DNA of 24,137 nucleotides from a virus: the IMG/VR virus record IMGVR_UViG_3300017987_002383, positions 1 through 24,137 of that record; one strand, 5' to 3'. The notes under the pieces were generated by a model. It had not been told where the DNA came from and did no database searches. It worked only from the letters and a program-made list of their open reading frames with translations. Shown one piece after another: positions 1 through 22,008 of this stretch. Every line of letters starts with the position of its first letter. The stretch's first letter is position 1. The translations under genes and the position numbers were made by a program.

Positions 1-1752
1 AAAGCAGAATTTGAATCTCTCCCAGCATCTTTTAGATCTTTACTAGAATCTTTCTATTCTTCTATGGTTAAGATTAACGAAAACGGCCTTAGCTTCTATG
101 TTGGAAACAGCAGCTTTAAGCTTGTTGAAGAAAATGATTCAGTTGCAATCTATTCGAAAGAAACTAAGATTAACTTCAAGGATATCAATCAACTTGCTAA
201 GCAGATAGCTTTAGAGATCTCTGGTAGCTTAGGTGTTAATGAATCTAAAGCAGTTTCGGATCTTATCAACCTATATGAAAATTTTGAAAATATCGTTGAA
301 TTGGATTTCGCTAAGAGATTGGAATCAAAGGTATTTGAAGGTGTATCTGTAAACCTTATTAAATGGAACTCAAACCTTTACCTTAACAGGATCAATGAGG
401 GAATGAACGAGAATTCTCTATTTAAGGTTAATGGATCACAAGCTACCAACATGGTTAAGGATTTGATGAAGTACGACATCTCTGAAGGATTAACAGAATT
501 CTTGGATGGCGAGAACAGAATCAAGTCTATTATGCTTAACGATAGAAAGCAAATCATTGATAATATTTCTATTGTCGAGAATGAAATCAATAAGATTTCA
601 CATGCAATGTCTACAAACCCACTTTATGAGAATTCAAAAGAAATGCACAGAGCTAAGCATATGCTTGAGCAAGAGCTTTCTTCGTTGAGGAAAAAATGGG
701 CGGCTGTTAACGAGGAGATCGAAAAGATCGAATCAACTGTAACGGAAGTAAACAACTTAAACGAGGACGAGAAATTTACTGTAGGTGACTATGTAAAGGT
801 AAAAGAATCTGGTAATACTGGTAAGGTAATTTCAGTCGATAGTACTTCTGGCTCTTATACAGTTCTTATGGATAACGGAAGAACCGGAGATTTCAGAATG
901 GACGAGATCGTTGATATCGAAGAGGCACTAAAATCTGCTGGTGAAGAAAACCAAGAAGCAGACGAGACTCAGGAAGAAATTAAGGAGCAAGAAATGGCAG
1001 TAGCTCCTGAAAAACAAACTGAATCCGCAAAAGATAAAACCCCTGCTGCTACTCTTAAGGCTAATACTTCTGCAGCTCCTTCTGCTAAGGATCAGGACGA
1101 TGCTGGTAAAAAGGACATCGAAAAGGAAGATCATGCTAATTTAGAAGAAGCACCAGAGGGTAGCGAGAAGGAAACCAAGTATGACATTAAGTTAAAAGAT
1201 TCTTTGGTTGACAAAGTGGGATACAACGTGAATGAAAATTCTGAAGACGTTGAGTCTACCGAGCCCGAAATGGCTGAAGCTCCTACTGATGGTAATACAG
1301 AACTCTCTGAAAGAGACGTTGAAAATACCGACCAAAACTTAGCGGAAGCCCCGGGCGGAAGAGATCATGCAGATTATGATGTAAAAGCTGCTCACGCAGA
1401 GGAAAAGAATCCGGATATGGTTAAAACTGATCCTGAAATGGCTTCAGCTCCTGGGGATGGTACAGATAAAGAAATGCATCACGAGGTTGGCAAAGAAATG
1501 GGATATAATCTTGATGAAGCAAATGATGTTGAAAAGACAGACCAACAGTTTGCAGTAGCACCAGGTGGTGAGCACAAAGCAGAATATGATGTTGAAGTTG
1601 CTAAAGCTGAAAAGGCAGTAGCAGACGTTATGAAGACAAACCAAGAATTAGCTGAAGCTCCTGCAGCAGGAACTGAAGCTGAAACTGATGTTGAGGTAAA
1701 CCCAGAAATGGGATATAACATTGACGAAAGCGAAGAGTCAAAAAAAAACTAA
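1..1752 (+). CDS. Large acidic repeat protein, 5' end outside window (zero-frame product)
   Basis: The frame is open from base 1, so the gene begins upstream; the ATG at 64 has no special leader and is probably internal. The protein is not recognised as a known family. From the ATG at 64, residues 1-230 are helical and charged. Residues about 236-283 (FTVGDYVKVKESG, then GKVISVD and a DNGRTGDF stretch) look like a small KOW/SH3-type beta barrel. From about residue 285 the chain is very acidic and low in complexity, with six imperfect units around an xAP core: MAVAP, MAEAP, LAEAP, MASAP, FAVAP, LAEAP. These are separated by D/E/K-rich linkers and two copies of EMGYN(L/I)DE. It ends in SKKN at an A-run followed by TAA. 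The gene precedes sigma and head genes, so a virion or head-internal role is plausible but inferred. The -1 frame continues the same repeat (see 1749-1928). Confidence 0.85.
   Translation, partial: KAEFESLPASFRSLLESFYSSMVKINENGLSFYVGNSSFKLVEENDSVAIYSKETKINFKDINQLAKQIALEISGSLGVNESKAVSDLINLYENFENIVELDFAKRLESKVFEGVSVNLIKWNSNLYLNRINEGMNENSLFKVNGSQATNMVKDLMKYDISEGLTEFLDGENRIKSIMLNDRKQIIDNISIVENEINKISHAMSTNPLYENSKEMHRAKHMLEQELSSLRKKWAAVNEEIEKIESTVTEVNNLNEDEKFTVGDYVKVKESGNTGKVISVDSTSGSYTVLMDNGRTGDFRMDEIVDIEEALKSAGEENQEADETQEEIKEQEMAVAPEKQTESAKDKTPAATLKANTSAAPSAKDQDDAGKKDIEKEDHANLEEAPEGSEKETKYDIKLKDSLVDKVGYNVNENSEDVESTEPEMAEAPTDGNTELSERDVENTDQNLAEAPGGRDHADYDVKAAHAEEKNPDMVKTDPEMASAPGDGTDKEMHHEVGKEMGYNLDEANDVEKTDQQFAVAPGGEHKAEYDVEVAKAEKAVADVMKTNQELAEAPAAGTEAETDVEVNPEMGYNIDESEESKKN
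1740..1749 (+). promoter_or_regulatory. Probable -1 programmed ribosomal frameshift site (A AAA AAC)
   Basis: Nine A residues (1740-1748) followed by C give the in-frame heptamer A AAA AAC at 1743-1749, with an overlapping A AAA AAA at 1740-1746, directly before the TAA stop at 1750-1752. A AAA AAC is an established slippery heptamer. Slipping back one base leads into a frame open for 59 codons that carries the same xAP repeat. Possible downstream structures are a 6-bp hairpin (1748-1753 with 1761-1766), which overlaps the site, and a 6-bp hairpin with one bulged base (1772-1777 with 1782-1788). Neither is a strong pseudoknot by eye. A homopolymer sequencing error is the main alternative. Confidence 0.6.
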
Positions 1753-1928
1753 GAAAAATACTTAGTAAAGTTTGGGCTTTTGCTCCAACGGGAAAGGATC
1801 AATCTGAAACACCAGAACCTTTCGTCGATGAAATAAAAGATAAAATGAGCGTCGCCCCAGATGGAAAAGAACCAGCTGGAGACACGCTCATTTCTTCTGA
1901 AGATGGATCTGAAGAGGATAAGGCCTAG
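1749..1928 (+). CDS. Frameshift extension of the acidic repeat protein (-1 frame)
   Basis: This is a 59-codon open stretch in the -1 frame, running from the slippery heptamer to TAG at 1926. It has no credible start of its own: the frame opens after a TGA at 1722, and the first ATG is at 1848 without a suitable leader. Its sequence includes VWAFAPTGKDQ and KMSVAPDGKEPAGD. These match the zero-frame repeat units such as EMASAPGDGTDKE. It therefore reads as the continuation of the upstream protein, adding two xAP units and an acidic end (SSEDGSEEDKA). Either a fraction of ribosomes shift to make a longer form, or the A-run is miscounted and this is simply the true C-terminus. Both readings make it coding. 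Confidence 0.65.
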   Translation, partial: LRKILSKVWAFAPTGKDQSETPEPFVDEIKDKMSVAPDGKEPAGDTLISSEDGSEEDKA

Positions 1929-1937
1929 GCCGAAACT

Positions 1938-1949
1938 AACCTCGAGGTT
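1938..1949. repeat. 12-bp perfect palindrome upstream of the sigma gene
   Basis: AACCTCGAGGTT reads the same on both strands. It lies in the 54-base gap between the acidic repeat gene and the gp55-like gene. It could be a protein-binding site or form a very short hairpin. There is no T-run after it, so it is not a terminator. Its function is unknown. Confidence 0.4.
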
Positions 1950-1982
1950 TAATCTAAAAATAATATAAGTATTAATAAGGTT

Positions 1983-2342
1983 ATGGCAAAGGCTTATGTA
2001 AAAAATAAAGACCTGTTGGCTGCTATTCTAGAGTCAAAGGAAAAAGGTGAGCTAACACCAGAGACCATCGAGATGTTTGGTTTAATGGTTCAAGGCATTT
2101 CAAAAAAGATGGCTTACCGTGACCCAGACGATAAAGCTGATTGTATGGCTTTTGCTATGGAAGACCTTTGTAAATATTGGAACAGGTTCAATCCAGAAAA
2201 GTCGAATAATCCATTTGCATATTATACACAAATTGCAAAAAATGGGTTTGCAAAGGGGTGGAAGAAAATACATCCACCAAAGGCACCAAAAACGATTCCA
2301 TTCTCTTACATAACAGGCGATGACAATACATATAATGTATAA
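1983..2342 (+). CDS. 55: Late-transcription sigma factor, T4 gp55-like (short form)
   Basis: A 119-residue protein resembling the core of T4 gp55, the sigma factor that directs host RNA polymerase to late promoters. Similar features are the N-terminal VKNKDLLAAI, a GISKKM segment, DKADCMAFAMEDLCKYW, and the diagnostic NNPFAYYTQIAKNGF, which corresponds to T4 KNPHAYITQACFNAF. T4 gp55 has about 185 residues; this protein stops just after the region equivalent to T4 YSYF...DDD. It therefore lacks the T4 C-terminal part that contacts the sliding clamp. The ATG follows an A/T-rich leader. The gene is followed 2 bases later by the gp4 homolog. The element it may read is the GGATATATAG motif found elsewhere in the window. 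Family assignment is from recalled sequence similarity. Confidence 0.75.
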   Translation: MAKAYVKNKDLLAAILESKEKGELTPETIEMFGLMVQGISKKMAYRDPDDKADCMAFAMEDLCKYWNRFNPEKSNNPFAYYTQIAKNGFAKGWKKIHPPKAPKTIPFSYITGDDNTYNV

Positions 2343-2344
2343 TC

Positions 2345-2830
2345 ATGCCCGATATAAAGAAAATAAAACCCAATGGGGACTATAAGTCTGGCTTATACGT
2401 TCCACAAAACCCGGACAAGTACATTGGTGACGTCCATAACATAATCTGCAGATCTTCTTGGGAATTCAGGTTTTGTCGTTATTGCGATACTAACGACAAA
2501 ATACTTAAATGGAGTTCTGAACCAATCTCTATTCCTTATTACAATCCTTTGGATAAAAAAGAACACCAATATAACGTGGACTTTTATATGCAAGTTCTTA
2601 AAGATGATGACCAAACCCAGGATTGGATAATAGAGGTCAAACCAGAAAAACATTTTAAGAAGCCTATTCTGGAGGGCAATTCAACACTTAAGAAGCTTAA
2701 GTCTTATAACCATAAAATGCAGATCTGGATTACTAATCAAGCCAAATTTAAAGCAGCCCAGAGATGGGCAGATGCTAGGGGATATAAATTTGGTGTGGTT
2801 GATGAGAACTTTTTATTTAGGAGCAAGTGA
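2345..2830 (+). CDS. 4: Head completion protein, T4 gp4 (gp50/65) family nuclease fold
   Basis: A 161-residue protein matching the T4 gp4 head-completion family, which finishes the filled head before tail joining. Family-like segments are GLYVPQNPDKYIGD, then RSSWEFRFCRYCD, then YNVDFYMQV and WIIEVKPEKH. These supply a PD-(D/E)xK/TnsA-like set of candidate metal ligands: E40, D79, and E97-x-K99. The start ATG at 2345 lies 2 bases after the sigma gene stop, and the stop overlaps the GTG of the next gene (GTGA). In T4 this protein acts at the portal vertex, which fits the portal genes just downstream. Length is close to that of the T4 protein. Whether it cuts DNA is not known from sequence. Confidence 0.85.
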   Translation: MPDIKKIKPNGDYKSGLYVPQNPDKYIGDVHNIICRSSWEFRFCRYCDTNDKILKWSSEPISIPYYNPLDKKEHQYNVDFYMQVLKDDDQTQDWIIEVKPEKHFKKPILEGNSTLKKLKSYNHKMQIWITNQAKFKAAQRWADARGYKFGVVDENFLFRSK

Positions 2831-3432
2831 AGCCTTTCGAAGAACAAATTAAGGAACTAAGAAGGGGATCTCAGTCGATTTCTAATATCTCTAAGGAATC
2901 TAATGATTTATTTAAGAGAAAATACGGTCCAGATGGATCTGGTGGAAGATTAGAATTCAATGGTGATTTCATACCGGGTAAATTCTATACCTGTGAATAT
3001 AAAACGAAAACGAAGGTCTCTGAGAAAACCCCTTTTATCGATAGGGAGCCAGTTTTTATTTTTCTCAAAAAGGAAAAATTTCAAAGTGGATCTATAGCGG
3101 TTTCTGTCGATCTTGGTGTAATCCCTCCCGATTATAGGGGAAATATCATGATGAAATTGTGGGATCAGTATTACAACATATTTAAGGATAATGAGTCTTT
3201 ACCTTATACTTCTCAAATTCCCATACAAGGAATTAGCAGATCTTTTGACCTTTTGTTGAATGGTACTGGATGGAAAACTTCCCTCACCGGATTCAAATTG
3301 GATTTTATGGATAACATTAAGGTTATAGATTATTCTGACCTTGTGAGAATTCCATATCTTTCGGATTTTATGATAGAGGGACAATCAATAAATTGGATAT
3401 ATAATGATTATAGATCGAAATTAAACCTTTAA
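2827..3432 (+). CDS. Conserved phage protein of unknown function next to head-completion gene
   Basis: 201 residues beginning at a GTG that overlaps the gp4 stop (GTGA), a classic translational coupling arrangement. The N-terminus (1-45) is polar and probably flexible (FKRKYGPDGSGG). A compact domain follows from about residue 48, with a PGKFYTCEYKTKTK strand and a PFIDREPVFIFLKK segment, then LGVIPPDYRG. From memory this pattern (PG..Y...Y..K.K...P..D..P....L...PP..R) recurs in a small uncharacterised family in T4-like marine phages, but I cannot name it. In T4, genes 2 and 53 flank gene 4. This protein does not look like gp53, and relation to the DNA end protector gp2 cannot be shown here. 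A role in virion assembly is inferred from position only. Confidence 0.75.
   Translation: MKPFEEQIKELRRGSQSISNISKESNDLFKRKYGPDGSGGRLEFNGDFIPGKFYTCEYKTKTKVSEKTPFIDREPVFIFLKKEKFQSGSIAVSVDLGVIPPDYRGNIMMKLWDQYYNIFKDNESLPYTSQIPIQGISRSFDLLLNGTGWKTSLTGFKLDFMDNIKVIDYSDLVRIPYLSDFMIEGQSINWIYNDYRSKLNL
3395..3403 (+). promoter_or_regulatory. Candidate late promoter for the portal genes (GGATATATA)
   Basis: GGATATATA followed by ATG lies inside the 3' end of the preceding gene. TATATA ends 62 bases before the ATG of the first portal gene, the same spacing as the copy inside the protease-scaffold gene. It lacks the G after TATATA seen in the best copies. Confidence 0.35.
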
Positions 3433-3465: not shown

Positions 3466-5106
3466 ATGGCCGGATTTAACGAAACACCAGAGGGCAACCC
3501 AATATTCCAAAGGATTAGAGAATCTGTAAAATCTCTAAGTAATTTTGGTATGAGATATGGTGACATGGTCATTAAAAACTCACAAGCAATTGGATCGATA
3601 GAGGCTGAATTTATGAAAAAGCAATCTATCGATGACGAGAGTTTGCTTTATTCATTAGGTAGACAAGATACTACTACAAGGCAGTTTATTAGCTACTATG
3701 ATAAAGATTATGCGGGGAAGAGAGACTATCTTAGAAAGTTTGCTCTTAATCCTGAGATAGAGTATATCCTTGATACCGTTTGTGACGAGGCTATTACTTT
3801 TGATTCCTATAATTTCTTTGCGTATCCTGCATTCTTGAACCTTACCGGAGTTAAAGATAAGGTAAAGGAAAGACTTGATGAGAACTACAAGAAGCTTTAC
3901 GATATGTTTGGCTTTGGGGATGACATTAGTGCCTGGCAGTATTTTAGGCAGCTGATGGTTGATGGATTTCTTTCTTTTGAAATTGTTTATGATGATAAAG
4001 GAAAGAATATAATCGGGTTCAAAGAGCTCGATGCAACTACACTAATGCCATCCGTAGAAAAACAACCTGATGGCACTTATTTGAACGTGTGGTATCAATA
4101 CCCCAAGGATATTAATAAGAGGAGGATGCTATACGATTCCCAGGTGATCTACATATCATTTGCTAAGGGAAACACAGTTTCTAGAGTAAGTTACGTCGAG
4201 AGACTGATAAGACCTTATAACGTTCTTAGAATTATTGAATACACTAGGGTTATTTGGTCTGTTATGAATGCTTCCTTCCGGATGAAAATGACAGTACCGA
4301 TCGGATCTAGATCTCCTCAAAAATCTATGCAAACCTTGGGAGAGTTAATGAGTATCTATAAAGAAGATATTAGGTTCAATGACGAAAGTGGGGAACTAAC
4401 TATCGACGGGAGACCAAAAATCCAGTTCTATAAGAATTATCTTATGCCATCTGGTGTAAATGGAACACCGACGATAGAACCCCTAAACAATGCAGGACCT
4501 AACCTTAACGATCCACAGCCGCTAGCATATTTTTATGATAAGCTTGTTCAAGAATCTAAGGTTCCTTTTTCAAGATTTCAAGGACCCGATGGAGGATCTA
4601 TTGGAAACTATTCAAATGGAGCAGAAGGACTTGATAAGGAAGAAATAAGATTTGGTAAGTTTATTAGTAGGCTTAGATCCATATTCCAGGACTTGCTGGT
4701 TAAGCCCCTTTGGATTCAGATGTGTAAGGATTTCCCCGAATTAGAGAAGGATTACTTATTTAAAAGCCAACTTGGTCTAGAATACGTTTCTGATAATCCC
4801 TTTAGGATTAACCAGGAGATAGAGACTATGCTTAAAAAGAAAGAGCAGATTGATGGTATGTATACTCTGACCGATGATAGCGGTGAGCCATTCTTTTCTT
4901 TGGCTTATCTAATAGAATCTCATCTTGGAATGACTGAAGATGATATCAAGGCGAACAAGGAAGCCATTGAGAAGAGAAAAGAGGAAGAAAAAAAGAAATC
5001 CGAGGAAGAGGCTAAATCTACAGGAGAGGAAGGAGAAGGTGCTCCTCCAGAAGAAACCCCGGAGGAATCACCGGCAGAGGGTCCGGAAGAAACCCCACAA
5101 GAATAA
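3466..5106 (+). CDS. 20: Portal vertex protein, T4 gp20 family (first copy)
   Basis: 546 residues of the gp20 portal family. In T4, gp20 forms a dodecameric ring at the head vertex, starts head assembly and is the channel for DNA packaging. Visible hallmarks are the N-terminal FGMRYGDMVIKNSQ, DKDYAGKRDYLRKFALNPE, WQYFRQLMVDGFLSFEIVYD, GFKELDATTLMP, the clip/stem region YISFAKGNTVSRVSYVERLI, and QFYKNYLMP. The C-terminus (about 495-546) is a lysine/glutamate-rich segment ending in a PEETPEESP-type acidic tail, likely exposed. Length is close to T4 gp20. The stop is followed 9 bases later by a second gp20-like gene of the same length and closely related sequence, so this is a tandem duplication. 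A candidate late promoter lies 62 bases before the start. Confidence 0.92.
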   Translation: MAGFNETPEGNPIFQRIRESVKSLSNFGMRYGDMVIKNSQAIGSIEAEFMKKQSIDDESLLYSLGRQDTTTRQFISYYDKDYAGKRDYLRKFALNPEIEYILDTVCDEAITFDSYNFFAYPAFLNLTGVKDKVKERLDENYKKLYDMFGFGDDISAWQYFRQLMVDGFLSFEIVYDDKGKNIIGFKELDATTLMPSVEKQPDGTYLNVWYQYPKDINKRRMLYDSQVIYISFAKGNTVSRVSYVERLIRPYNVLRIIEYTRVIWSVMNASFRMKMTVPIGSRSPQKSMQTLGELMSIYKEDIRFNDESGELTIDGRPKIQFYKNYLMPSGVNGTPTIEPLNNAGPNLNDPQPLAYFYDKLVQESKVPFSRFQGPDGGSIGNYSNGAEGLDKEEIRFGKFISRLRSIFQDLLVKPLWIQMCKDFPELEKDYLFKSQLGLEYVSDNPFRINQEIETMLKKKEQIDGMYTLTDDSGEPFFSLAYLIESHLGMTEDDIKANKEAIEKRKEEEKKKSEEEAKSTGEEGEGAPPEETPEESPAEGPEETPQE

Positions 5107-5115
5107 TAATATAGG

Positions 5116-6720
5116 ATGGCAGGTTTTTTAGATTATGTAGCAGAAAGATCCTTCTTGGGCAACCTTTATAAGAATTTGTCTAAGGTTGGAAGGTTTGGTA
5201 TGGAGTATGAGGATATGGTAATTCGTAATTCTCAAGCTGTTGGTGCTACCGAATCTAATTTTTTCAACGAGCAAGGAACAGGATTTACCGAGAATAATGC
5301 CTTTTATTGGACCCTTGGATATCAAGATACTAAGGTCAGGAAATATATTGCTTATTTTGATAAGGATTACCTTGGTAAAAGAGACTTCCTTAGAAAATTT
5401 TCTCTAAATGGCGAGATCGATTTTATTTTAGATACACTTACTGACGATGCTATTAATTATGATGACAAAAATTTCTTTAGTTATCCTTCTTTAGCAAATA
5501 TTGACCTAAAGCCAAATGTTCTTGATAAGGTAAATGAGACTTATCAGAATCTTTACATGTTGTTTGGTTTCCAGCAAAGTATCTTAGCCTGGCAATATTT
5601 TAAGCAATTCTTGATAGATGGTTTTTTGGCTTTTGAAATTGTCTATTCCACAGACGGTAAGAAAATAGTGGGTTTCAAAGAATTGGACCCAACCTCACTT
5701 CAGCCTGCTACCGAACAGCAACCAAATGGTGAATTCCAGCAGATATGGATACAATATCCAGAGGATAACAAGATGACCAGGAAGCTCAAGAGTGAGCAGA
5801 TCATTTATCTTTCGTATGCGAAAGGAAACACAATTTCTAGGGTAAGTTATGTAGAGAGGCTTATAAGGTCCTATAACATTCTAAGAATCATGGAAAACAC
5901 CAGGGTTATTTGGAATGTGATGAATGCCTCTTATAGACTTAAGTTTGTAATCCCGGTTGGTTCACAATCCCAACAAAAAGCAATGCAGACACTGGGTCAA
6001 TTGATGTCTATTTATAAGGAAGAGATTGAACTCAACGATTTCTCTGGTGAGCTAACAGTAAACGGTAGACCTAAGGTACAATTCTACAAGAATTATCTTT
6101 TTCCCGAGAAAGATGGACAATCTCCACAGATCGAAACGTTGGATCCAAATGGACCAGACTTCAATGTCATGGATAATGTCATCTATTTCTATAACAAACT
6201 TAAGCAGGATTCAAAAATACCTTATGCAAGGTTTGCTTTCAGGAACGGTACCCCTGCTAATTACCAGATAAGTATAGACCAGCTAGAAAGGGATGAAATT
6301 AGGTTTGAAAAATTCCTTACTAGGTTGAGATCAATATTTCAAGAAATATTGGTCAAGCCACTTTATATACAGATGTGCTTGGACTTTCCTGAATTAGCTA
6401 AAGATAGATCGTTCAAGAGTAATCTGGGTCTTACCTATGTTAGAGAAAACCTTTTCGAGGAATTCATCCAGTTACAAAACTACACTAAACGTACACAGTT
6501 TATAAACGATCTGGGCGAGATGAAGCAAAAGATTGGTGAAGAAGAGGTGTCTTATTTTGACAAGGAATTCTTGATTAAAAGATACCTTGGCTTGACTATG
6601 GATGAGTATAAAAAGAACGAGAAATACAAGGAAGCTGAAGCTAAGCTTGCTGAAGAAAAAGCTAAGGAAGCTGGATCCGAAGGAGGAGAAGAAGGCGGAG
6701 GCGAGTCATTCACCCTATAA
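5116..6720 (+). CDS. Portal vertex protein, T4 gp20 family (second, paralogous copy)
   Basis: 534 residues, colinear with the first portal over almost the whole length. By eye roughly half the residues are identical. Matching blocks are FGMEYEDMVIRNSQ, DKDYLGKRDFLRKFSLNGE, WQYFKQFLIDGFLAFEIVY, GFKELDPTSLQP, KGNTISRVSYVERLIRSYN and QFYKNYLFP. No frameshift or stop interrupts it, and the conserved portal blocks are intact, so it appears functional. The C-terminal tail differs (KYKEAEAKLAEEK, then a Gly/Glu-rich end). Upstream spacing is 9 bases, suggesting co-transcription and similar translation. The two could form a mixed ring, or one could serve another role at a different assembly stage; which of the two is unknown. 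Canonical T4 has a single portal gene. Confidence 0.9.
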   Translation: MAGFLDYVAERSFLGNLYKNLSKVGRFGMEYEDMVIRNSQAVGATESNFFNEQGTGFTENNAFYWTLGYQDTKVRKYIAYFDKDYLGKRDFLRKFSLNGEIDFILDTLTDDAINYDDKNFFSYPSLANIDLKPNVLDKVNETYQNLYMLFGFQQSILAWQYFKQFLIDGFLAFEIVYSTDGKKIVGFKELDPTSLQPATEQQPNGEFQQIWIQYPEDNKMTRKLKSEQIIYLSYAKGNTISRVSYVERLIRSYNILRIMENTRVIWNVMNASYRLKFVIPVGSQSQQKAMQTLGQLMSIYKEEIELNDFSGELTVNGRPKVQFYKNYLFPEKDGQSPQIETLDPNGPDFNVMDNVIYFYNKLKQDSKIPYARFAFRNGTPANYQISIDQLERDEIRFEKFLTRLRSIFQEILVKPLYIQMCLDFPELAKDRSFKSNLGLTYVRENLFEEFIQLQNYTKRTQFINDLGEMKQKIGEEEVSYFDKEFLIKRYLGLTMDEYKKNEKYKEAEAKLAEEKAKEAGSEGGEEGGGESFTL

Positions 6721-6731
6721 ATTTCATCTAA

Positions 6732-7739
6732 ATGGATCTAAAGGATCTTCTATCTTCAAAGAAAATTCTGGTAGTTGGAGACGTTATATTGGACCATTAT
6801 ATCTATGGTAAGGTATATCGAGTTTCACCTGAAGCCCCAGTACCTGTGGTTTTAAAATCACATTCAACATATTGCTTGGGAGGTTCGGCAAACGTTGCTC
6901 AAAACATTTCTTCTTTTGGCTCTGAATGTTGGCTGCTTGGTATCTATGGAGACGACGGGGGATCCTTAGAAATTGATACATTGCTTAATCAAAGGAACAT
7001 AAATTCTTTAATGGTAAAGGATTGGTCTAGGTCAACTATAGAAAAAACTAGGGTAATTGGTAATAATCACCAGATTGTAAGGATAGATTTGGAAAGAACC
7101 GATCCGCTAATACCAGATATTGAGAAGGAGGTTTTGAAATCGTTTGATTCTATCATATCCCAAATGGATGGTGTTATTATACAAGACTACGGAAAGGGAA
7201 TGCTAAGTACAGAACTTATTGATAAGATAACCAAAAAGTGTCTAGACCTTGGAATACCTACACTTACTGATCCGAAGGATAAGAATTTCTCTAAATATGC
7301 TGGGTCTACCTGGATAAAACCAAATCTTAGCGAGTTTAAGTCAGCATTAAATATTCCACAGCCAGAATCGCTTGATTTAAAAAGAACCATAAAATTAATG
7401 GATAGCCTAAGGGATGATTTTGGTTTTGACGGTGTCTTGCTTACTCTTTCGGAGGATGGGATGCTGCTAAAGACCGCTTCCGATTTTGAGCAAGTTGATG
7501 GGGTTCAAATAGAGGTGACTGATGTTTCTGGAGCTGGAGACACGGTTAGTGCTGTTTTCATGCTTCTCTTAACAAACAACGTTTCTGACCTTGACTGTTT
7601 AAGGATATCAAATCTTGCTGGTTCTTTGGTCTGTCAGGTATCTGGTGCAGTCCCGGTAGATGCTAATCTCCTGTATATGAATTTACTTAAAAATTCTTGG
7701 GTTATTACAAACAAATCAGGAGAGCCCATTCTAGTGTAG
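6732..7739 (+). CDS. HldE/HldA-type D-glycero-D-manno-heptose 7-phosphate kinase (PfkB family)
   Basis: 335 residues of the PfkB/ribokinase family, closest in pattern to the kinase domain of HldE (RfaE). That enzyme phosphorylates heptose-7-phosphate at O-1 on the way to ADP-heptose for LPS core. Family features are KILVVGDVILDHYIYG, VSPEAPVPVV at 31-40, GGSANVAQNI at 50-59, the HldE-like EKTRVIGNNHQIVRIDLE, DYGKGML at 152-158, and the C-terminal anion hole TDVSGAGDT with the catalytic base D270. Only the kinase domain is present; the HldE cytidylyl/adenylyl half is missing. It sits 11 bases after the second portal stop in an otherwise T4-like order, so it is an inserted accessory gene. Substrate could be another sugar phosphate; the HldE-specific N-terminus argues for heptose. 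Confidence 0.85.
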   Translation: MDLKDLLSSKKILVVGDVILDHYIYGKVYRVSPEAPVPVVLKSHSTYCLGGSANVAQNISSFGSECWLLGIYGDDGGSLEIDTLLNQRNINSLMVKDWSRSTIEKTRVIGNNHQIVRIDLERTDPLIPDIEKEVLKSFDSIISQMDGVIIQDYGKGMLSTELIDKITKKCLDLGIPTLTDPKDKNFSKYAGSTWIKPNLSEFKSALNIPQPESLDLKRTIKLMDSLRDDFGFDGVLLTLSEDGMLLKTASDFEQVDGVQIEVTDVSGAGDTVSAVFMLLLTNNVSDLDCLRISNLAGSLVCQVSGAVPVDANLLYMNLLKNSWVITNKSGEPILV

Positions 7740-14880: not shown

Positions 14881-15660
14881 ATGCCAGAGTTAGCAGAACT
14901 AAAACTTACTTCTGATTTTGTTAATGGGGTTGTGAAGGATAAAGTGTTTACCCACATATCTAAAAACCCAGAACATAAATGGATGGATGTTGATTTTGAA
15001 AGTCCGTTTACTATAGAATCCTTCAGTAGGGGTAAAGAAATTAAATTGGTTCTTGAATCAACAGAAACTGATAAGACTGACAATCTTATGATGACTATGG
15101 GTATGGGAGGGCATTTTCAATGGGCTTCTCGAGGGGAGTCTATAAAACATACCCATCTTTTCTTCCATTGTAATGATGGTGGACATTTAGCTTTTGTTGA
15201 TGTGAGGAGATTTGGTAAATGGAAATGGGGAGATTGGAACAAAGATAGGGGTCCGGATCCAACCACCGAATATTTCCTCTTCTGCAATAACATTTTGCAA
15301 AATCTCCACAAGACGGCTTTTGATAAACCAATCTATGAGGTTCTAATGAACCAGAGATACTTTAATGGTATTGGGAATTATCTGAGAGCCGAGATCTTAA
15401 TCCGGATTCCTGATGAAAATCCCTTTCAATCTGCTAGAGAATTTATCAACAAAAGAAAATGGGAACTTTTTGAGTTGTGTAAGGATATACCAATTCTTGT
15501 TTATGAAATAGGTGGAGGTACACTAAAAGATTGGAAAAACCCCTTTGGAGAGGTATCATCGGTGCGGGATTTTATGAAGTGTTACGGTAATCCAGCAATG
15601 GAAAAATTAGAAGATCGTGGTGGAAGGATGTTCTGGTACGACCCAAAATGGAAAAATTAA
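14881..15660 (+). CDS. Fpg/Nei-family DNA glycosylase, zincless-finger type
   Basis: 259 residues starting MPELAE. In this family P2 is the nucleophile and E3 the catalytic acid, so the ATG at 14881 is certain. Other hallmarks are FSRGKEIKL with the conserved Lys52, MTMGMGGHF (the family's void-filling loop region), VDVRRFGKW at 107-115, and the helix-two-turn-helix NGIGNYLRAEIL at 162-173. The enzyme removes oxidised bases and cuts the strand. The C-terminal region has a single cysteine (CYGNP) rather than the CxxC...CxxC zinc finger. It ends KLEDRGGRMFWYDPKWKN, the pattern of NEIL1-like zincless fingers. It is followed 4 bases later by the exonuclease and sits in a repair cluster. Confidence 0.9.
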   Translation: MPELAELKLTSDFVNGVVKDKVFTHISKNPEHKWMDVDFESPFTIESFSRGKEIKLVLESTETDKTDNLMMTMGMGGHFQWASRGESIKHTHLFFHCNDGGHLAFVDVRRFGKWKWGDWNKDRGPDPTTEYFLFCNNILQNLHKTAFDKPIYEVLMNQRYFNGIGNYLRAEILIRIPDENPFQSAREFINKRKWELFELCKDIPILVYEIGGGTLKDWKNPFGEVSSVRDFMKCYGNPAMEKLEDRGGRMFWYDPKWKN

Positions 15661-16438: not shown

Positions 16439-17230
16439 GTGAGCTCAGTTAAAGGCTTTAGCAATTTTATTCTAAACGAAGACAAGGTAGGTTCTTTTTA
16501 TAATGACGAACTTAATCCTAAGTTTTGGGATAAGTATAGGACTAAAGATGGAAAGGAAGAGTGGGTTTTTGACAGGATAGTAAGAAAAAAACTCTTAAAG
16601 ATTGCTGAGGACTTTTACGAAAAATATGAGGACCTTCTTGGGGATCTTCCGATTTCAGATATTCAACTTACTGGATCCTTAGCTAACTATAATTACTCAG
16701 ACAAGTCAGATCTTGATGTCCATGTCTTGGTAGACTTTAACAAAATCAAATCTAAGAAGGAGATAGTTAAAGCTGCTGTTGATGGAATAAGATTTGTGTG
16801 GAACCTTAGGCACGATGTTATAATTAGAGGTCATGACGTAGAAGTTTATCTACAAGATATTCATGAACCTCATACAGCTTCTGGTTTATATTCTCTTATG
16901 AATGATAAATGGATTCGCAAGCCAAAGTTCGATCCACCGGAAGTTGATGAGCACGATGTAAGAAAAAAGTTCGATGGATTTGCTTCTGAGATCAACCAGA
17001 TGGAATCCAAACTTGTAACCTCATCTTCTTTACCTGACAATGCAAAAGAGATGTACAAGCGTCTTTTGAGGGTCAAGGAGAAGATCCAAAAAATGAGAAA
17101 AGACGATCTTTCCAAGAATGGTGAGTTCTCTGTGGGTAACCTAGCCTTTAAAATGCTCAGGAATGAGGGATATATAGGTAAAATAATAGATCTGATCTCC
17201 AAAGCTTACTCAAGGATCTATTCAGAATAA
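16439..17230 (+). CDS. Nucleotidyltransferase-fold protein with capsid-targeting-like leader
   Basis: 263 residues, starting at GTG directly after a T-run; an in-frame TAG upstream rules out a longer form. The Pol-beta-type nucleotidyltransferase motif is clear: LTGSLANYNYSDKSDLDVHV at 78-97, with G79-S80 and the metal pair D91/D93. A third acidic residue lies in GHDVEVYLQD (E135). The rest is helical. The substrate is unknown; candidates include NMP transfer to protein or RNA. The N-terminus SVKGFSNFILNE ends in an LxE site near residue 14, like T4 internal proteins that enter the head and are trimmed by the prohead protease. A late-type promoter lies 22 bases upstream and virion genes follow, so it may be a packaged, injected enzyme. 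That role is inference. Confidence 0.82.
   Translation: MSSVKGFSNFILNEDKVGSFYNDELNPKFWDKYRTKDGKEEWVFDRIVRKKLLKIAEDFYEKYEDLLGDLPISDIQLTGSLANYNYSDKSDLDVHVLVDFNKIKSKKEIVKAAVDGIRFVWNLRHDVIIRGHDVEVYLQDIHEPHTASGLYSLMNDKWIRKPKFDPPEVDEHDVRKKFDGFASEINQMESKLVTSSSLPDNAKEMYKRLLRVKEKIQKMRKDDLSKNGEFSVGNLAFKMLRNEGYIGKIIDLISKAYSRIYSE
17168..17178 (+). promoter_or_regulatory. Candidate late promoter within the nucleotidyltransferase 3' end (GGATATATAGG)
   Basis: GGATATATAGG is identical to the copy at 12851-12861. TATATA ends 69 bases before the ATG of the 896-residue protein. It lies in codons for GYIGK, so the match could be coincidental. Confidence 0.38.
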
Positions 17231-17245
17231 TAAAAAAGAAAGACA

Positions 17246-19936
17246 ATGTTATTAGTATTCAGAAAGGGCTTGGAATATGACGGGAGCATGAACGGCGAAC
17301 CGGCAGACAAAGAAGCCAACCTATTTCCATTAATGTCTTTACCCCTGGATATGGAAGGGACCGAGACTGATCTAAATGATTTCCAATGGTGGGCTTATTC
17401 CGATAAATGGAACGAGTGGTTGGAAAAAAACCCTAGAGATTGGCAAGCAGAGTCTAAGACTTCTGATTTTGATAAGGCTGAGGCTGTCCTTGAAAGTATG
17501 GTTACTGCAAAAGATCCACTTACCGGATACGTTTCTCAACAGATCAAAAATCTTTGGAATAACGGCAAGGTATCTTCATTTGGTGATTATATAAAAATTT
17601 TGGAAGCTGAAGGACAGTCTGGATCTTCTGAATCTTTCAAAAAGTTTGTCAAGCTAGGATTTGCTTTAGAGAAGCTTGCTAAAGATGGAACATTAAAAGA
17701 CAAACTCAAGATGGAAGATCTTGAAGAGGGTGAAGAGTATTCCATTGTTATAGATCCTATGACAGAGGATGGAGATCCTGTCCAGGAAGCAAGACAAGCT
17801 CTAAGAATTAAAAAACTTAACGAATCCGCTGGTTTTATTCTTGCTGATTTTGATTATAGTATTCCACTGGGAGAGGTTAAAGACACAGAAAGTTATTTAG
17901 ATAAGGTTTCTGATTTTGCAAAGGACGTTGCAATTGCGGGTGCAGGATTTGCAGGACTTTATGCTGCTGCTTATATCGGAGGCGGAATTCTATCTACCTG
18001 GGTACTTGGTAAAACCGCAAGGGGAATTTATAAAACTTTTACAAGAGCTAAAAGAATCCACGGGGCAATCCAATCAGCAAGAGGTACAAGTGCCACTGTT
18101 AGAGGTGGATTCCAAGCAGCTAAGAATTTTGCAATGAAAGCTTTCGGAAAAAGGGCAGCTCAAGGAGCGGTAGCTAATGCAGCGAGGGTAACTTTGCCTT
18201 CTGGTGCTTTTGTGGAAGGTGGCCTTGCTTATTCAACACGAGCAACTGGACATGTACTTCTGAAAGGAGCAGCTTCACAATCTGTAAAAGCTGCAGCAGC
18301 TAGAGCAGTTGCACAGGGGGGAGCACGGGCAGCAGCGACAGTAGGAGCAAGAGGAGCAGCAGCTGCTGCAGGAGCAAGTGGATTACTTGCTGCGGAGGCA
18401 TCCAATCCGATTGGGTGGATCATTGCAGTAGCATCTGTAGTTGGATCTGGAGTAAACCAGGTTTGGAATTGGCTCAGCGATAAACAAGCCCCTAGATACA
18501 GCGAAGTTGACAACTTTGCTTATGGTACATTCAGACCTAAGAATATCCCTATTGGAAAAGCGATCACTATCTGTTGGACAAGTGACGGCGGAGGAGGTGG
18601 TTGGGGCTTCGTTGTAGATCTTCTTACATTTAGTAAGGACGATACAAGAACTACTATGGAGCTAGTGAAAATTGGAGAAATGGAAGGAAGATCTATTTTC
18701 ATGGTACTTCAGGTTAATTCAAAAATGTTTGAAAAAGCCATGGCCGATAACGACCTTATGCTCATTTCTTTTGATAATAACGATGTTTTTGAAAGAGGAT
18801 ACCTAGATAACGATGATCTGGAGTTCCAAACAATCCTAATCCCCGATATTGCTGATTTATCTATAGCAACCTCTTTTGTGGGTTACTCAACATGGGAAGA
18901 AATGGAAAAAGCATATAGCGATGCACCTTCTAACCCGGTTTTCGTACCAACAGAAGCTAAGAAGACTTACGAATTCCATTACGTTGATTCAGAGGGTAGG
19001 GATGTAAATGTAACTGGAACATTAGTAAACGAGAGTGAACTTGAAGGTAGCGTTTTACAAAACCTTGTTCCTGGCGAAGGTAATTCGGTTTCCGAATCTT
19101 TTGAGGGAACTAAAGAATTTGAGGATCTTCTGAATGAAAGCAGGGTTTTATCTTTCTCAGACTTTTCTTCAAGATCTCCGATTAGTATTAATGAGGAAGA
19201 CGAGGAAATTCCTGATCCTGAGCAGAATGATGATCCTGAAGATAAAGAGACCTCTAGTTATGAGCAAGAGCTTGAGGATGTCATAGATTCTGGTGTTACC
19301 TTTTCTGAACCAGAGTATTCTAGAATTCCAATTATTGCTTATTCTGTTGACACTATAAGTTTTGTTGATCCTAATGAAGATGGATCTACTGCTAGTTTTA
19401 CCTACTTCTTAGTTGGTGACCAAAGTATTAGCCCCAAACAAAATCAACCAATTTTGGTAGAATCCGCATCTGAGGATTTAATAGACGAACCTAGATACGG
19501 CTTAAAAACCTACGTTCCTCCTACTGAGGAGAGAGAGGTTGATATTGTTGAGGAGCCTGAAGAAGATGATGTTATCGATATTGAAGATGTCGATGGGGAA
19601 GAAACTAGGATCCAAGCTGACCGAGCCGATGTTCAAATAAAAAGCGGATCGAGATCACTTTCTATTAAAGATAGGGATATCGAAGGTGGCATCAGTATCT
19701 TGGATGAATTTGGAACTGAGGAACTTATAAGAAAGCTTAATATCGAGGACTGGGAGGAAATAACTAGCGTCAAAGTTAGAGAAGATAGTGAGGGTAACCC
19801 AATAAAGGTAGTACTTAAGAATAGGTTTGCAGAATCTGGCAATAGGAGAAGGACTCTAAGAAAAGGAGAGGAAGGGTTTGATGTTGCACTCAAGTTTGCT
19901 AATGATGTTGAGGATGGTATATCTTTCTCCGGATAA
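17246..19936 (+). CDS. Large probable internal virion protein with Ala/Gly-rich hydrophobic region
   Basis: 896 residues of no recognised family. Residues 1-225 are acidic and polar. Residues about 226-405 form a long run rich in Ala, Gly and small residues. It has a hydrophobic start (DVAIAGAGFAGLYAAAYIGG), several basic amphipathic helices, AAAARAVAQGGARAAATVG, and a final hydrophobic segment NPIGWIIAVASVVGSGV. That profile fits a protein that inserts into or crosses membranes, as ejected head proteins do. Residues 410-620 look globular. From about 625 on the chain is acidic, ending in a domain with SLSIKDRDIEGGISILDE. LNESAG at 191-196 equals the LNESAG in the major capsid protein, and LNES recurs near 628; both are possible protease sites. 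It lies 15 bases after the nucleotidyltransferase and before the protease. A virion role is inferred. Confidence 0.85.
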   Translation: MLLVFRKGLEYDGSMNGEPADKEANLFPLMSLPLDMEGTETDLNDFQWWAYSDKWNEWLEKNPRDWQAESKTSDFDKAEAVLESMVTAKDPLTGYVSQQIKNLWNNGKVSSFGDYIKILEAEGQSGSSESFKKFVKLGFALEKLAKDGTLKDKLKMEDLEEGEEYSIVIDPMTEDGDPVQEARQALRIKKLNESAGFILADFDYSIPLGEVKDTESYLDKVSDFAKDVAIAGAGFAGLYAAAYIGGGILSTWVLGKTARGIYKTFTRAKRIHGAIQSARGTSATVRGGFQAAKNFAMKAFGKRAAQGAVANAARVTLPSGAFVEGGLAYSTRATGHVLLKGAASQSVKAAAARAVAQGGARAAATVGARGAAAAAGASGLLAAEASNPIGWIIAVASVVGSGVNQVWNWLSDKQAPRYSEVDNFAYGTFRPKNIPIGKAITICWTSDGGGGGWGFVVDLLTFSKDDTRTTMELVKIGEMEGRSIFMVLQVNSKMFEKAMADNDLMLISFDNNDVFERGYLDNDDLEFQTILIPDIADLSIATSFVGYSTWEEMEKAYSDAPSNPVFVPTEAKKTYEFHYVDSEGRDVNVTGTLVNESELEGSVLQNLVPGEGNSVSESFEGTKEFEDLLNESRVLSFSDFSSRSPISINEEDEEIPDPEQNDDPEDKETSSYEQELEDVIDSGVTFSEPEYSRIPIIAYSVDTISFVDPNEDGSTASFTYFLVGDQSISPKQNQPILVESASEDLIDEPRYGLKTYVPPTEEREVDIVEEPEEDDVIDIEDVDGEETRIQADRADVQIKSGSRSLSIKDRDIEGGISILDEFGTEELIRKLNIEDWEEITSVKVREDSEGNPIKVVLKNRFAESGNRRRTLRKGEEGFDVALKFANDVEDGISFSG

Positions 19937-20001: not shown

Positions 20002-22008
20002 ATGAACGAGTCTTTATTGAATGAAAACCTCCTTTTTATTCTTGAAAAGCAAGACAATAGTCTTTCTGTTTCAAAGGATGGTGCTGAAAACGGCTACGTA
20101 CTGAAAGGTATAGCAGCTCAATTTGGCAAGGAGAACAATAACAATAGAATATACGAGGAGGGAGAATATCTACCTCACCTTGAATATCTAAAGGATAAGA
20201 TAGGACAAAAGAGATTGGTTGGTGAATTGGACCACCCAGAAAAATTCGATGTTTCGCTTAAGAACATTTCTCATGTTGTAGAGGATCTAGTTTATGATAA
20301 AGACGGAAGGGTATTAAACATTAAAGTTCGTTTGCTTGACACTCCAGCAGGACAGATCGCTAAAAAGCTTGTTGATGCTGGTATACCACTTTCTATTTCA
20401 TCTAGAGCAGCTGGAAATGTTGGTCCGGATAAGAAAGTCCAGATCAAAAAAATCTTTACATACGACCTAGTAGCTGATCCTGGTTTTCAGGATGCTCAAC
20501 TCGAGAGAGTTTATGAGAGTGCTGGTTTTGATGCTTTTGAATTCGAAGAAAGATCAAAAAAGTCTGTGGTAAACAACTTAGAGTGTGTAAACGAATCTCT
20601 AGGGTTAGAAAATGAATCTGGTGTAAAGATATATAAAGTTGAAAATAGCGAAGAATTCGAAAAAATCCTTAATCAAGACAAAAATAAATCCAACACTATG
20701 GAGGCCAACAAAGAATATGTTACTGCTGACGAGCTTAACAAGTATTCTATCTTTTTGAAAAATAAGATGGATGAGCTGGAAACGCAGATTTCTGAAATGA
20801 AACAACAAGAAGCTCAGGTATCTGAGAGTGAAACTGACAGTGTAGACTGTAAAGCTCTAGAGGAAAGAGTTGCTAAACTTGAAAAGTATTCAGAATATCT
20901 TGCTGAAAACCTAGAGAGTGCTATCAAGTACGGAGAGTACCTAGCAGAAAATCTAGACAGTAGCATCACTTATTCAAAATATTTAGCTGAAAATCTAGAT
21001 AAGACTATTTCTTATTCTAAGTATTTGGCTGAAAATGTTGATAAGGGTATTTCATATTCAGAGTACGTGGCTGAAAATGTTGATAAGGCAATCGATTATT
21101 CCAAATATCTTGCTGAAAAGCTAGACGATGGAATTCAATACACAGAGTATGTTGCCGAGAATCTTGATAAGAACATCGCTTATTCGGAGTATCTAGCAGA
21201 GAATGTTGATAAGAACATTGCTTACTCTGAGTATTTGGCTGAGAATCTTGATAAAGGAATTTCTTATTCTGAATATCTTGCAGAAAACCTCGACAAAGGT
21301 ATTGCTTATTCTGAGTATATCGCAGAAAAGCTCGATCAAGATATCAATTACACAGAGTACATCGCAGAAAACCTAAATAAAGGAATTGCTTACTCTGATT
21401 ATTTAGCTGAAAAGCTAAATGGAAATATAGCTCAAACCGAAGCTATTCACGAAAGTGCTAAAGCGCAAGTTGCTCCTTCTCTAAATGAGAGTGCAAGAGA
21501 AAATGCTGAAAGTGCTTCACAAACTGAATTGGTCGAATCAGGGTTTGCTGGAGATTATGAAAATCTCGGAAGCAAAATTGATTCTCTAATTGAATCGGTC
21601 AAAACACAGAAGACTGAGGAAAACATAAACGAGGCTAATACGAAAGTACAGCCAACTGCTCAAACACAAAAAGCAGATGAGGCGATCAACGAAGCCGAAG
21701 AAACCGTGGTAGAATCATCAGGTCACAAATTTATTGATGAAATGCCAGAAGATTACGCTCCGATTTGGGAGTCACTAAATGAAAGTCAAAAGCAATCAAT
21801 CATTGCTCAATCTGCTTTCTATAACTTAGAGACTCAATATCAGATCAAAAACTTCTGGTCAACTCGTCAGCTTGGTGCTAAGCCAGTAGGTTTACAGAAA
21901 CTTCAAGAGAGCCAAGAAACACCAGAGCCTAAGACGGCTACAGCCCCTCAGGGGTATTCAAATGATTACCTTAATTGGGTCGCTAAGTCGCTCGAAGGTA
22001 AGTTTTAA
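20002..22008 (+). CDS. 21: Prohead protease (gp21-like) fused to a repeat-rich scaffold (gp22-like)
   Basis: 668 residues. Residues about 25-180 form the T4 gp21 / herpes-assemblin type serine protease: GIAAQFGKENNNNRIY, GELDHP with candidate catalytic His78, ISHVVEDL, LLDTPAGQIAKKL, PLSISSRAAG with the candidate Ser at 133/134, and YDLVADPGF. From about 233 it becomes scaffold-like, with coiled-coil 235-295 and thirteen 14-residue repeats (296-477). A polar stretch with LNES motifs follows, then a C-terminal region that includes APIWESLNESQKQSI and ends SNDYLNWVAKSLEGKF. In T4 the protease and scaffold are separate adjacent genes (21 and 22). Here they are one frame, with an internal promoter-like element and ATG (233) that may produce scaffold alone. 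The protease would digest the scaffold and trim the capsid protein during head maturation. Confidence 0.88.
   Translation: MNESLLNENLLFILEKQDNSLSVSKDGAENGYVLKGIAAQFGKENNNNRIYEEGEYLPHLEYLKDKIGQKRLVGELDHPEKFDVSLKNISHVVEDLVYDKDGRVLNIKVRLLDTPAGQIAKKLVDAGIPLSISSRAAGNVGPDKKVQIKKIFTYDLVADPGFQDAQLERVYESAGFDAFEFEERSKKSVVNNLECVNESLGLENESGVKIYKVENSEEFEKILNQDKNKSNTMEANKEYVTADELNKYSIFLKNKMDELETQISEMKQQEAQVSESETDSVDCKALEERVAKLEKYSEYLAENLESAIKYGEYLAENLDSSITYSKYLAENLDKTISYSKYLAENVDKGISYSEYVAENVDKAIDYSKYLAEKLDDGIQYTEYVAENLDKNIAYSEYLAENVDKNIAYSEYLAENLDKGISYSEYLAENLDKGIAYSEYIAEKLDQDINYTEYIAENLNKGIAYSDYLAEKLNGNIAQTEAIHESAKAQVAPSLNESARENAESASQTELVESGFAGDYENLGSKIDSLIESVKTQKTEENINEANTKVQPTAQTQKADEAINEAEETVVESSGHKFIDEMPEDYAPIWESLNESQKQSIIAQSAFYNLETQYQIKNFWSTRQLGAKPVGLQKLQESQETPEPKTATAPQGYSNDYLNWVAKSLEGKF
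20628..20640 (+). promoter_or_regulatory. Candidate internal late promoter for scaffold-only transcript
   Basis: GATATATAAAGTT is identical over 13 bases to the element at 19968-19980. It lies within the protease-scaffold gene, with TATATA ending 62 bases before the in-frame ATG at 20698. The leader before that ATG (AAAAATAAATCCAACACT) is A-rich, like other starts here. Confidence 0.45.
20698..22008 (+). CDS. 22: Possible separate scaffold protein from internal start (gp22-like)
   Basis: In-frame internal product, residues 233-668 of the fusion (436 residues), beginning MEANKEYVTADELNKY. The start coincides with the boundary between the protease domain and the scaffold part. It is preceded by an A-rich leader and, 62 bases upstream, by a copy of the late-promoter element. 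Making extra scaffold relative to protease from an internal start is known for lambda (C/Nu3). T4 needs many gp22 scaffold copies per few proteases, so such an arrangement would solve the stoichiometry. Whether it is used is inference. Confidence 0.45.
   Translation: MEANKEYVTADELNKYSIFLKNKMDELETQISEMKQQEAQVSESETDSVDCKALEERVAKLEKYSEYLAENLESAIKYGEYLAENLDSSITYSKYLAENLDKTISYSKYLAENVDKGISYSEYVAENVDKAIDYSKYLAEKLDDGIQYTEYVAENLDKNIAYSEYLAENVDKNIAYSEYLAENLDKGISYSEYLAENLDKGIAYSEYIAEKLDQDINYTEYIAENLNKGIAYSDYLAEKLNGNIAQTEAIHESAKAQVAPSLNESARENAESASQTELVESGFAGDYENLGSKIDSLIESVKTQKTEENINEANTKVQPTAQTQKADEAINEAEETVVESSGHKFIDEMPEDYAPIWESLNESQKQSIIAQSAFYNLETQYQIKNFWSTRQLGAKPVGLQKLQESQETPEPKTATAPQGYSNDYLNWVAKSLEGKF
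20887..21432 (+). repeat. Thirteen 42-bp (14-residue) repeats in the scaffold
   Basis: Thirteen contiguous units of the form YSEYLAENLDKGIA encode residues 296-477. The DNA copies differ at synonymous positions (Leu and Ala codons vary freely) while the protein is conserved. The repeat is therefore old and held by protein-level selection, not recent slippage. Fourteen residues equal two heptads, fitting a coiled-coil rod. Most units carry LAE or IAE (VAE in two), the gp21-type cleavage pattern. Confidence 0.93.

Follow-up and report, generated by a model that had tools for sequence, protein, structure and literature searches.

The first gene of the window (the window being the whole stretch of DNA analysed here, a complete IMG/VR record of 24,137 bases from a T4-like phage) ends in a run of nine adenines that is, with high probability, a programmed recoding site. 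Normal decoding would end at the TAA stop codon directly behind the run, resulting in a short form of the protein. At nine or ten A's a fraction of the decoding events would enter the -1 frame and continue into a conserved C-terminal extension of about 50–62 residues, resulting in a long form. In this way one gene would supply two forms in a set ratio. The comparative evidence makes it very likely that the frameshift is real and selected; that both forms are made is inferred from the sequences compared. The features of the site and its surroundings are as follows (window coordinates).

1..1752, plus strand: zero-frame gene (short form); its 5' end lies outside the window, and the listed ORF 64-1752 opens at an internal ATG
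982..1737, plus strand: acidic tail that ends the short form, holding eight AP units; where it begins was judged by eye
1740..1748, plus strand: A9 run, putative slippage site, read from the sequence; nine or ten A's in 83 of 83 contexts
1740..1746, plus strand: in-frame heptamer A_AAA_AAA, read from the sequence; overlaps the second heptamer
1743..1749, plus strand: in-frame heptamer A_AAA_AAC, read from the sequence
1750..1752, plus strand: zero-frame stop TAA, directly 3' of the run, likewise in 79 of 83 contexts
1749..1928, plus strand: -1 frame extension, 59 codons and TAG (1926-1928); open frame, under purifying selection
1983..2342, plus strand: late sigma factor gene, next downstream (phrog_234)

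The zero frame ends with TCA (1738-1740) AAA AAA AAC (1747-1749) TAA (1750-1752), and the run at 1740-1748 is the sole one of at least nine A's or T's in the window. The first-pass annotation had described a nine-A run ending in A AAA AAC in frame right before the stop, a -1 frame open for 59 codons from that point, the units WAFAPTGKD and KMSVAPDGKE within it and no start codon near its beginning. All of this was verified: the -1 frame begins with CTA (1749-1751), reaches its first ATG only at codon 33, and shows both AP units in its translation. The claim that the short and long forms would differ by two repeat units is also supported, as the selected extension holds two of them. The unit is indeed present in the zero frame, but eight times in the window and not six. 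Bases 1-63 are open in the zero frame, so the gene must start upstream of the window; in near-identical contigs it encodes 911 aa from an ATG, starting with MDLLNQLK, and the zero-frame products of 58 whole relatives span 722–985 aa. An Rfam search of window 1-3000 at E 1 gave no match, and a terminator scan of window 1600-2400 found none.

Relatives were fetched in two ways, with the N-terminal and middle part of the protein and, independently, with extension peptides alone; two of the former fetches took in 80 of 147 and 80 of 140 relatives. The 365 loci obtained (L001 being the window itself) were reduced to distinct site contexts, many loci being repeat fetches of one contig. Eighteen loci without the motif were excluded: seven truncated ones (L018, L036, L054, L093, L094, L114 and L201), nine from other phage records (L216-L224), L060 and L325. 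The last was missed by the pattern, and when read by hand has A9 and a -1 extension; it stands outside the 83 contexts counted. L089, L321 and L352 were excluded as well, their sequence being cut off near the site.

The 83 distinct contexts, all on viral contigs and classified with no demand on run length, have A9 in 77 cases and A10 in 6. The extension lies in the -1 frame and a zero-frame stop (TAA, TGA or TAG) follows the run at once in 79 of them; this count includes the L136 context, where the stop is one further codon downstream. The four exceptions all come from a single group of closely related loci: the extension is in frame in two, on a separate ORF in one, and the zero-frame stop comes later in one. 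The comparison with related phages proposed by the first-pass annotation thus finds both the run and the frame offset kept, and the site is present in relatives down to about 43–50% protein identity. Loci found by extension peptides alone, a route blind to the run, carry nine or ten A's at the junction in 61 of 61 cases (NFYFAP type) and in 80 of 80 (VWxFAP type). The last codon of the run in shifting contexts is AAC, AAT or AAG, or AAA in L136 and L174, and the slippery character is kept through these changes. In the window's own clade, with TCA before the run, 26 of 26 shifting contexts have exactly nine A's.

In one set of 62 contexts the codon directly preceding AAA AAA AAN has A at its third position throughout, whether it encodes S, L, V, Q or E, and the third base varies in each of the eleven codons further upstream. 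This set had required A9 or more, and the 83 contexts were rechecked with the requirement lifted: the run opens on the third codon base in 77 and in another phase in 6, and is A9 or A10 in every case. As a separate observation, of the 22 other runs of nine or more A's in 63 representative loci, 15 sit a few bases upstream of this gene's own start codon (L132, L136, L141, L142, L145, L149, L157, L159, L161-L166 and L168).

The extension is under purifying selection in the -1 frame only. Its pN/pS is 0.19 in that frame versus 1.41 and 1.63 in the other phases, and substitutions at codon positions 1, 2 and 3 of the -1 frame number 152, 106 and 451; these values come from 28 chosen pairs which are not independent, some sharing members and one including the in-frame L132. 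Conserved residues start a few codons after the run. None of 63 extensions has ATG, GTG or TTG within the first 24 codons, and two have an ATG at codon 25.

Homopolymers are generally error-prone, and a sequencing or assembly error (the true run joining the frames) or decay of the gene (the tail being dead) could produce a similar picture. The same length class and frame offset, however, recur across many metagenomes, in 79 of the 83 distinct contexts. Since the site is conserved and the tail is selected, error or decay is very unlikely, to the point of being hardly credible. A homopolymer at a frame junction is also the usual anatomy of a contingency locus, where the DNA run would differ in length between phage particles and toggle the long form, and the L132 group does show the in-frame state. 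Such phase variation is nevertheless highly improbable: the 26 shifting TCA contexts all have nine A's and none the in-frame length, and what separates the in-frame state of L132 from its relatives is not run length alone. The extension might, finally, be a separate product, translated by restart after the zero-frame stop with no fusion, as its own ORF with an ATG in the L142/L143/L144 group would allow. Elsewhere the first 24 codons offer no ATG, GTG or TTG and the conserved residues begin within a few codons, which leaves restart a slim probability. Read-through of the stop codon was rejected, since the frame reached differs from the conserved one.

The exceptional group shows natural alternatives to the proposed recoding. 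Its members are 87–92% identical to L136 in the query domain (among the matches listed) and fall into four layouts. In L136-L138 the run is A10 and the stop comes after one further codon. L141 (with L245) has a -1 extension and a zero-frame tail of 12 codons, the stop lying 35 bases behind the run. In the L132 group the extension is fused in frame although A9 is retained, and a -1 slip there would stop after three codons; in L244 the extension is likewise in frame. L142-L144 carry the extension on a separate small ORF (L142:6129-6400) starting with MSSNKILDFFSYINEENADVKKN, a start which we take to recall the T4 capsid-targeting sequence. The extension peptide is kept in all four layouts, and what changes is the apparent means of making it. 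Where the frames are joined (L132 group, L244) or the ORFs are separate (L142 group), the mechanism is dispensable. The L142 row of the tree consists of 4 aa only and its placement is meaningless, so that kinship to L132, L136 and L141 is taken from the 87–92% identities; L244 is not in the tree. The first-pass annotation had named two findings that would speak against a shift. One, ten A's joining the frames, occurs in no context of the window's TCA clade. The other, relatives with both parts in one frame, does occur, in two contexts, the L132 group and L244, both from one different subclade, and the close relatives of these shift.

More distant homologues of the protein are found in 15 Lak phage records (about 22–23% identity) and in LR756500, where they adjoin the same late sigma gene. 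The homologue in LR756500 is without the acidic tail and without A9. That of Lak-A2 has a long, very acidic tail in an open frame of 1,684 aa (with TAG as a Q codon), and the 8 kb read there contain no A run of length eight or above. In LR756504 the homologue has neither an acidic tail nor an A8 run at its end. Screening PTm1, Flavobacterium phage MaF61 and LR756501 with a sequence profile gave no homologue. The window's capsid protein finds its nearest counterparts in LR756500 and the Lak phages (about 45%). A group of large aquatic phages near Lak, with hosts mostly among the Bacteroidota, is described in PMC12619734, as far as its available parts go, and it is our guess that the window belongs to it; the words 'frameshift' and 'slippage' are absent from the main text of that paper.

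Programmed access to the -1 frame, as claimed by the first-pass annotation, is borne out by the 79 of 83 contexts and the pN/pS of 0.19. The ribosomal nature also claimed for it is not established, as slippage of RNA polymerase fits the data equally well or somewhat better. Our judgement, based on sequence comparison, leans to the polymerase, to which we give about an even chance; a purely ribosomal -1 shift is a serious but less probable candidate, and joint action of both is improbable.

Were the polymerase to slip, some mRNAs would have an extra A and ordinary translation of these would give the long form, as in Thermus thermophilus dnaX. The minimal run is nine in 83 of 83 contexts, and the base by which it exceeds eight falls on a third codon position and stays A even where the encoded amino acid differs; no adjoining structure is required. 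Transcriptional slippage is highly efficient in vivo at nine A's or T's (PMC5009743), and the bacterial enzyme is reported to slip efficiently on runs of this length (PMC5009743, PMC6260861; both seen in part). The mechanism calls for a run of about nine; for the bacterial polymerase the minimum is at least seven T's, or more if A's (PMC6260861). On the other side, the E. coli enzyme, which may differ from that of the host, slips less readily on A than on T runs (PMC6260861, available parts). It also counts against the polymerase that an in-frame heptamer is always kept in the run, as for a ribosomal site.

A purely ribosomal shift would consist in tandem tRNA slippage at A_AAA_AAA or A_AAA_AAN on uniform transcripts, as in E. 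coli dnaX. The first-pass annotation took A_AAA_AAC as the slippery site; the overlapping A_AAA_AAA may be the working one instead. The in-frame heptamer is present in all contexts read codon by codon, the zero-frame stop is immediate in 79 of 83, and AAG is the last codon in several lineages, as in dnaX. One heptamer, however, needs seven bases, and the run is never shorter than nine. Most contexts end in AAC or AAT, codons whose asparagine tRNA would be poorly matched to AAA once shifted. The sequence beside the site shows no strong or conserved structure: from base 4 to base 63 past the run, mean folding z is -1.14 (n=24), -0.36 (n=6) and -0.65 (n=29) in three clades. A Shine-Dalgarno-like element common to all clades was not seen by eye either, so the classical ribosomal signal is incomplete. 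The fixed A before AAA AAA AAN is not needed by a single heptamer; it can be accounted for by polymerase slippage or by two overlapping heptamers. Taken together, the lack of a conserved adjoining structure and the kept third-position A point somewhat to the polymerase over a classical ribosomal signal.

Two candidate stimulators were rejected. A CTAAG..CTTAG stem near the window site is broken in relatives such as L084, as judged by eye. The other is a hairpin inside the extension.

1842..1893, plus strand: hairpin in the extension, in part of the family only; predicted folding and compensatory changes

It lies 93–98 nt behind the run and can form in 19 contexts of two related clades; covariation was assessed on 18 of them, one of two identical sequences being dropped. 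In these 18 sequences 92.7% of cells pair, and 12 cells are changed on both sides versus 4.6 in shuffles (reached by 0 of 500). Two further measures are weak: pairs with a change on both sides number 3 versus 1.9 (115 of 500 shuffles score at least as high), and there are 10 further pair types versus 8.7 (36 of 500). One pair fails in 12 of the 18 sequences. A C-G to U-A change, at third positions of two codons, is found in 7 of the 18. As the 3' arm is missing from nine contexts that do have the 5' arm and a third clade gives no signal (mean z -0.17), the hairpin falls outside the common mechanism; its distance from the run and its absence in much of the family speak against it as a common stimulator.

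The protein itself is probably an acidic prohead-core protein of T4-like large phages, trimmed by the prohead protease. The first-pass annotation had called it a virion protein; a prohead core protein looks more likely, in view of its neighbourhood of head genes, its acidity and its enrichment in protease-like motifs. The gene is located among head genes: a gp4-like head closure gene, two portal genes, a protease-scaffold gene and the major capsid protein gene follow 3' in the window. The net charge of the full short form is -77. Putative cleavage sites were sought as [LIV]xE[SAG], a motif modelled on the specificity of the T4 prohead protease gp21. The full short form has 23 of them versus 5.5 expected, and 58 relatives with a recognised start have 20.3 versus 4.7 on average. 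The extensions of these relatives have none, a weak zero as extensions are short. The motif is also enriched in the protease-scaffold (13 versus 3.6) and in the capsid protein (5 versus 1.3, p 0.014), and weakly so in ORF 17246-19936 (9 versus 4.5, p 0.044); the remaining 12 window ORFs tested show no significant enrichment (lowest p 0.062). Within the AP units, E precedes AP in 91 of 344 units of the tail versus 1 of 125 units of the extension. The minor long form would bear an end module without cleavage motifs, which may tie the core to the shell, the portal or the genome.

PHROGs and NCBIfam hold no family for the protein at E 0.01, and Pfam gave weak matches only, below curated cut-offs. 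A structure model of 645 residues was obtained from 28 relatives (mean pLDDT 74.8, pTM 0.39). VIA-align describes it as mainly coiled coil with a small barrel.

769..921, plus strand: predicted small SH3/Tudor/KOW-like barrel; L062 model residues 585-635 converted to window bases; weak sub-cut-off Pfam match

All seven BFVD matches at E 0.001 or better are uncharacterised phage proteins, one of them from Tenacibaculum phage PTm1. Against the PDB, no fold match reached E 0.001, and profile comparison with its sequences yielded a single weak hit (E 0.004).

Combining these lines, we tentatively propose that slippage of the host RNA polymerase, and not of the ribosome, on a selected A9/A10 run may set the ratio of two prohead-core forms across a wide lineage of T4-like large phages, the same end module being in frame in one relative group and, in others of that group, on its own gene with a capsid-targeting-like start. 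If true, head assembly in phages would offer a case of programmed transcriptional slippage.

The best-known examples of phage recoding are tail chaperones and certain capsid or tail proteins, and no frameshift is known to us in a core protein of T4. C-terminal extensions gained by frameshifting occur in phage structural proteins such as the coat protein of T3 and T7 and proteins of Lactobacillus phage A2 and Listeria phages A118, A500 and PSA (PMC5009743, available parts). As in those cases, one gene would give a minor longer form by a change of frame, and in-frame alternatives exist in relatives. In contrast to them, the protein here is unrelated, the tail is of low complexity and acidic and is not an Ig-like domain, the run is A9/A10, and the product belongs probably to the prohead core and not to the coat. 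Frameshifted phage structural extensions are thus already known; the present case stands out for how widely it occurs, for its A9/A10 site and for the natural alternatives to it. Thermus thermophilus dnaX resembles it in having two products from one gene and a nine A/T run (PMC5009743), but slippage leads there to the shorter product and would lead here to the longer one, where polymerase slippage is only proposed. The G-GT tail chaperone of lambda likewise has a -1 shift near the gene end which adds a C-terminal part in a set ratio (PMC5009743); the present gene, however, does not lie between tail tube and tape measure genes, its neighbours being late sigma, head closure and portal genes.

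In the methyltransferase gene of Campylobacter phage CPt10 the frame is also broken in an A tract, and transcriptional slippage was suggested (PMC2853527). That is a single gene, the break is called a frame-shift mutation, and the available part of the paper reports no conserved tail or family-wide site. The prohead core of T4 comprises gp22, gp67, gp68 and internal proteins (PMC9958956, available part); like them, the present protein is acidic, encoded among head genes and rich in motifs resembling the cleavage specificity of gp21. Searches of PHROGs and NCBIfam at E 0.01 found no sequence relation to T4 core proteins, and a distant one is possible. A literature search of titles and abstract openings, most subscription papers being outside it, returned no account of this site.

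The site is kept across dozens of distinct environmental-phage contexts in a gene that is nameless in the family libraries searched, and the tail is lost to any gene caller that closes the gene at its zero-frame stop. With the nine-A length kept, whether polymerase or ribosome slips can be tested directly. The natural variants, shifted, fused or as a separate gene, allow one to ask what role a set product ratio has in head assembly.

Some other observations concern the neighbouring genes. T4 has one portal gene; the window has two in tandem (3466-5106 and 5116-6720), both phrog_213 and 51% identical over 523 aligned positions. The ORF at 20002-22008 encodes a head maturation protease followed by many near-identical units like YSEYLAENLDKGI, and is probably a scaffold fused to a protease. 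Between the head genes, at 6732-7739, 14881-15660 and 16439-17230, lie sugar-kinase-like and DNA-glycosylase-like genes, recognised from their translations only, and a gene for a protein with weak nucleotidyltransferase matches.
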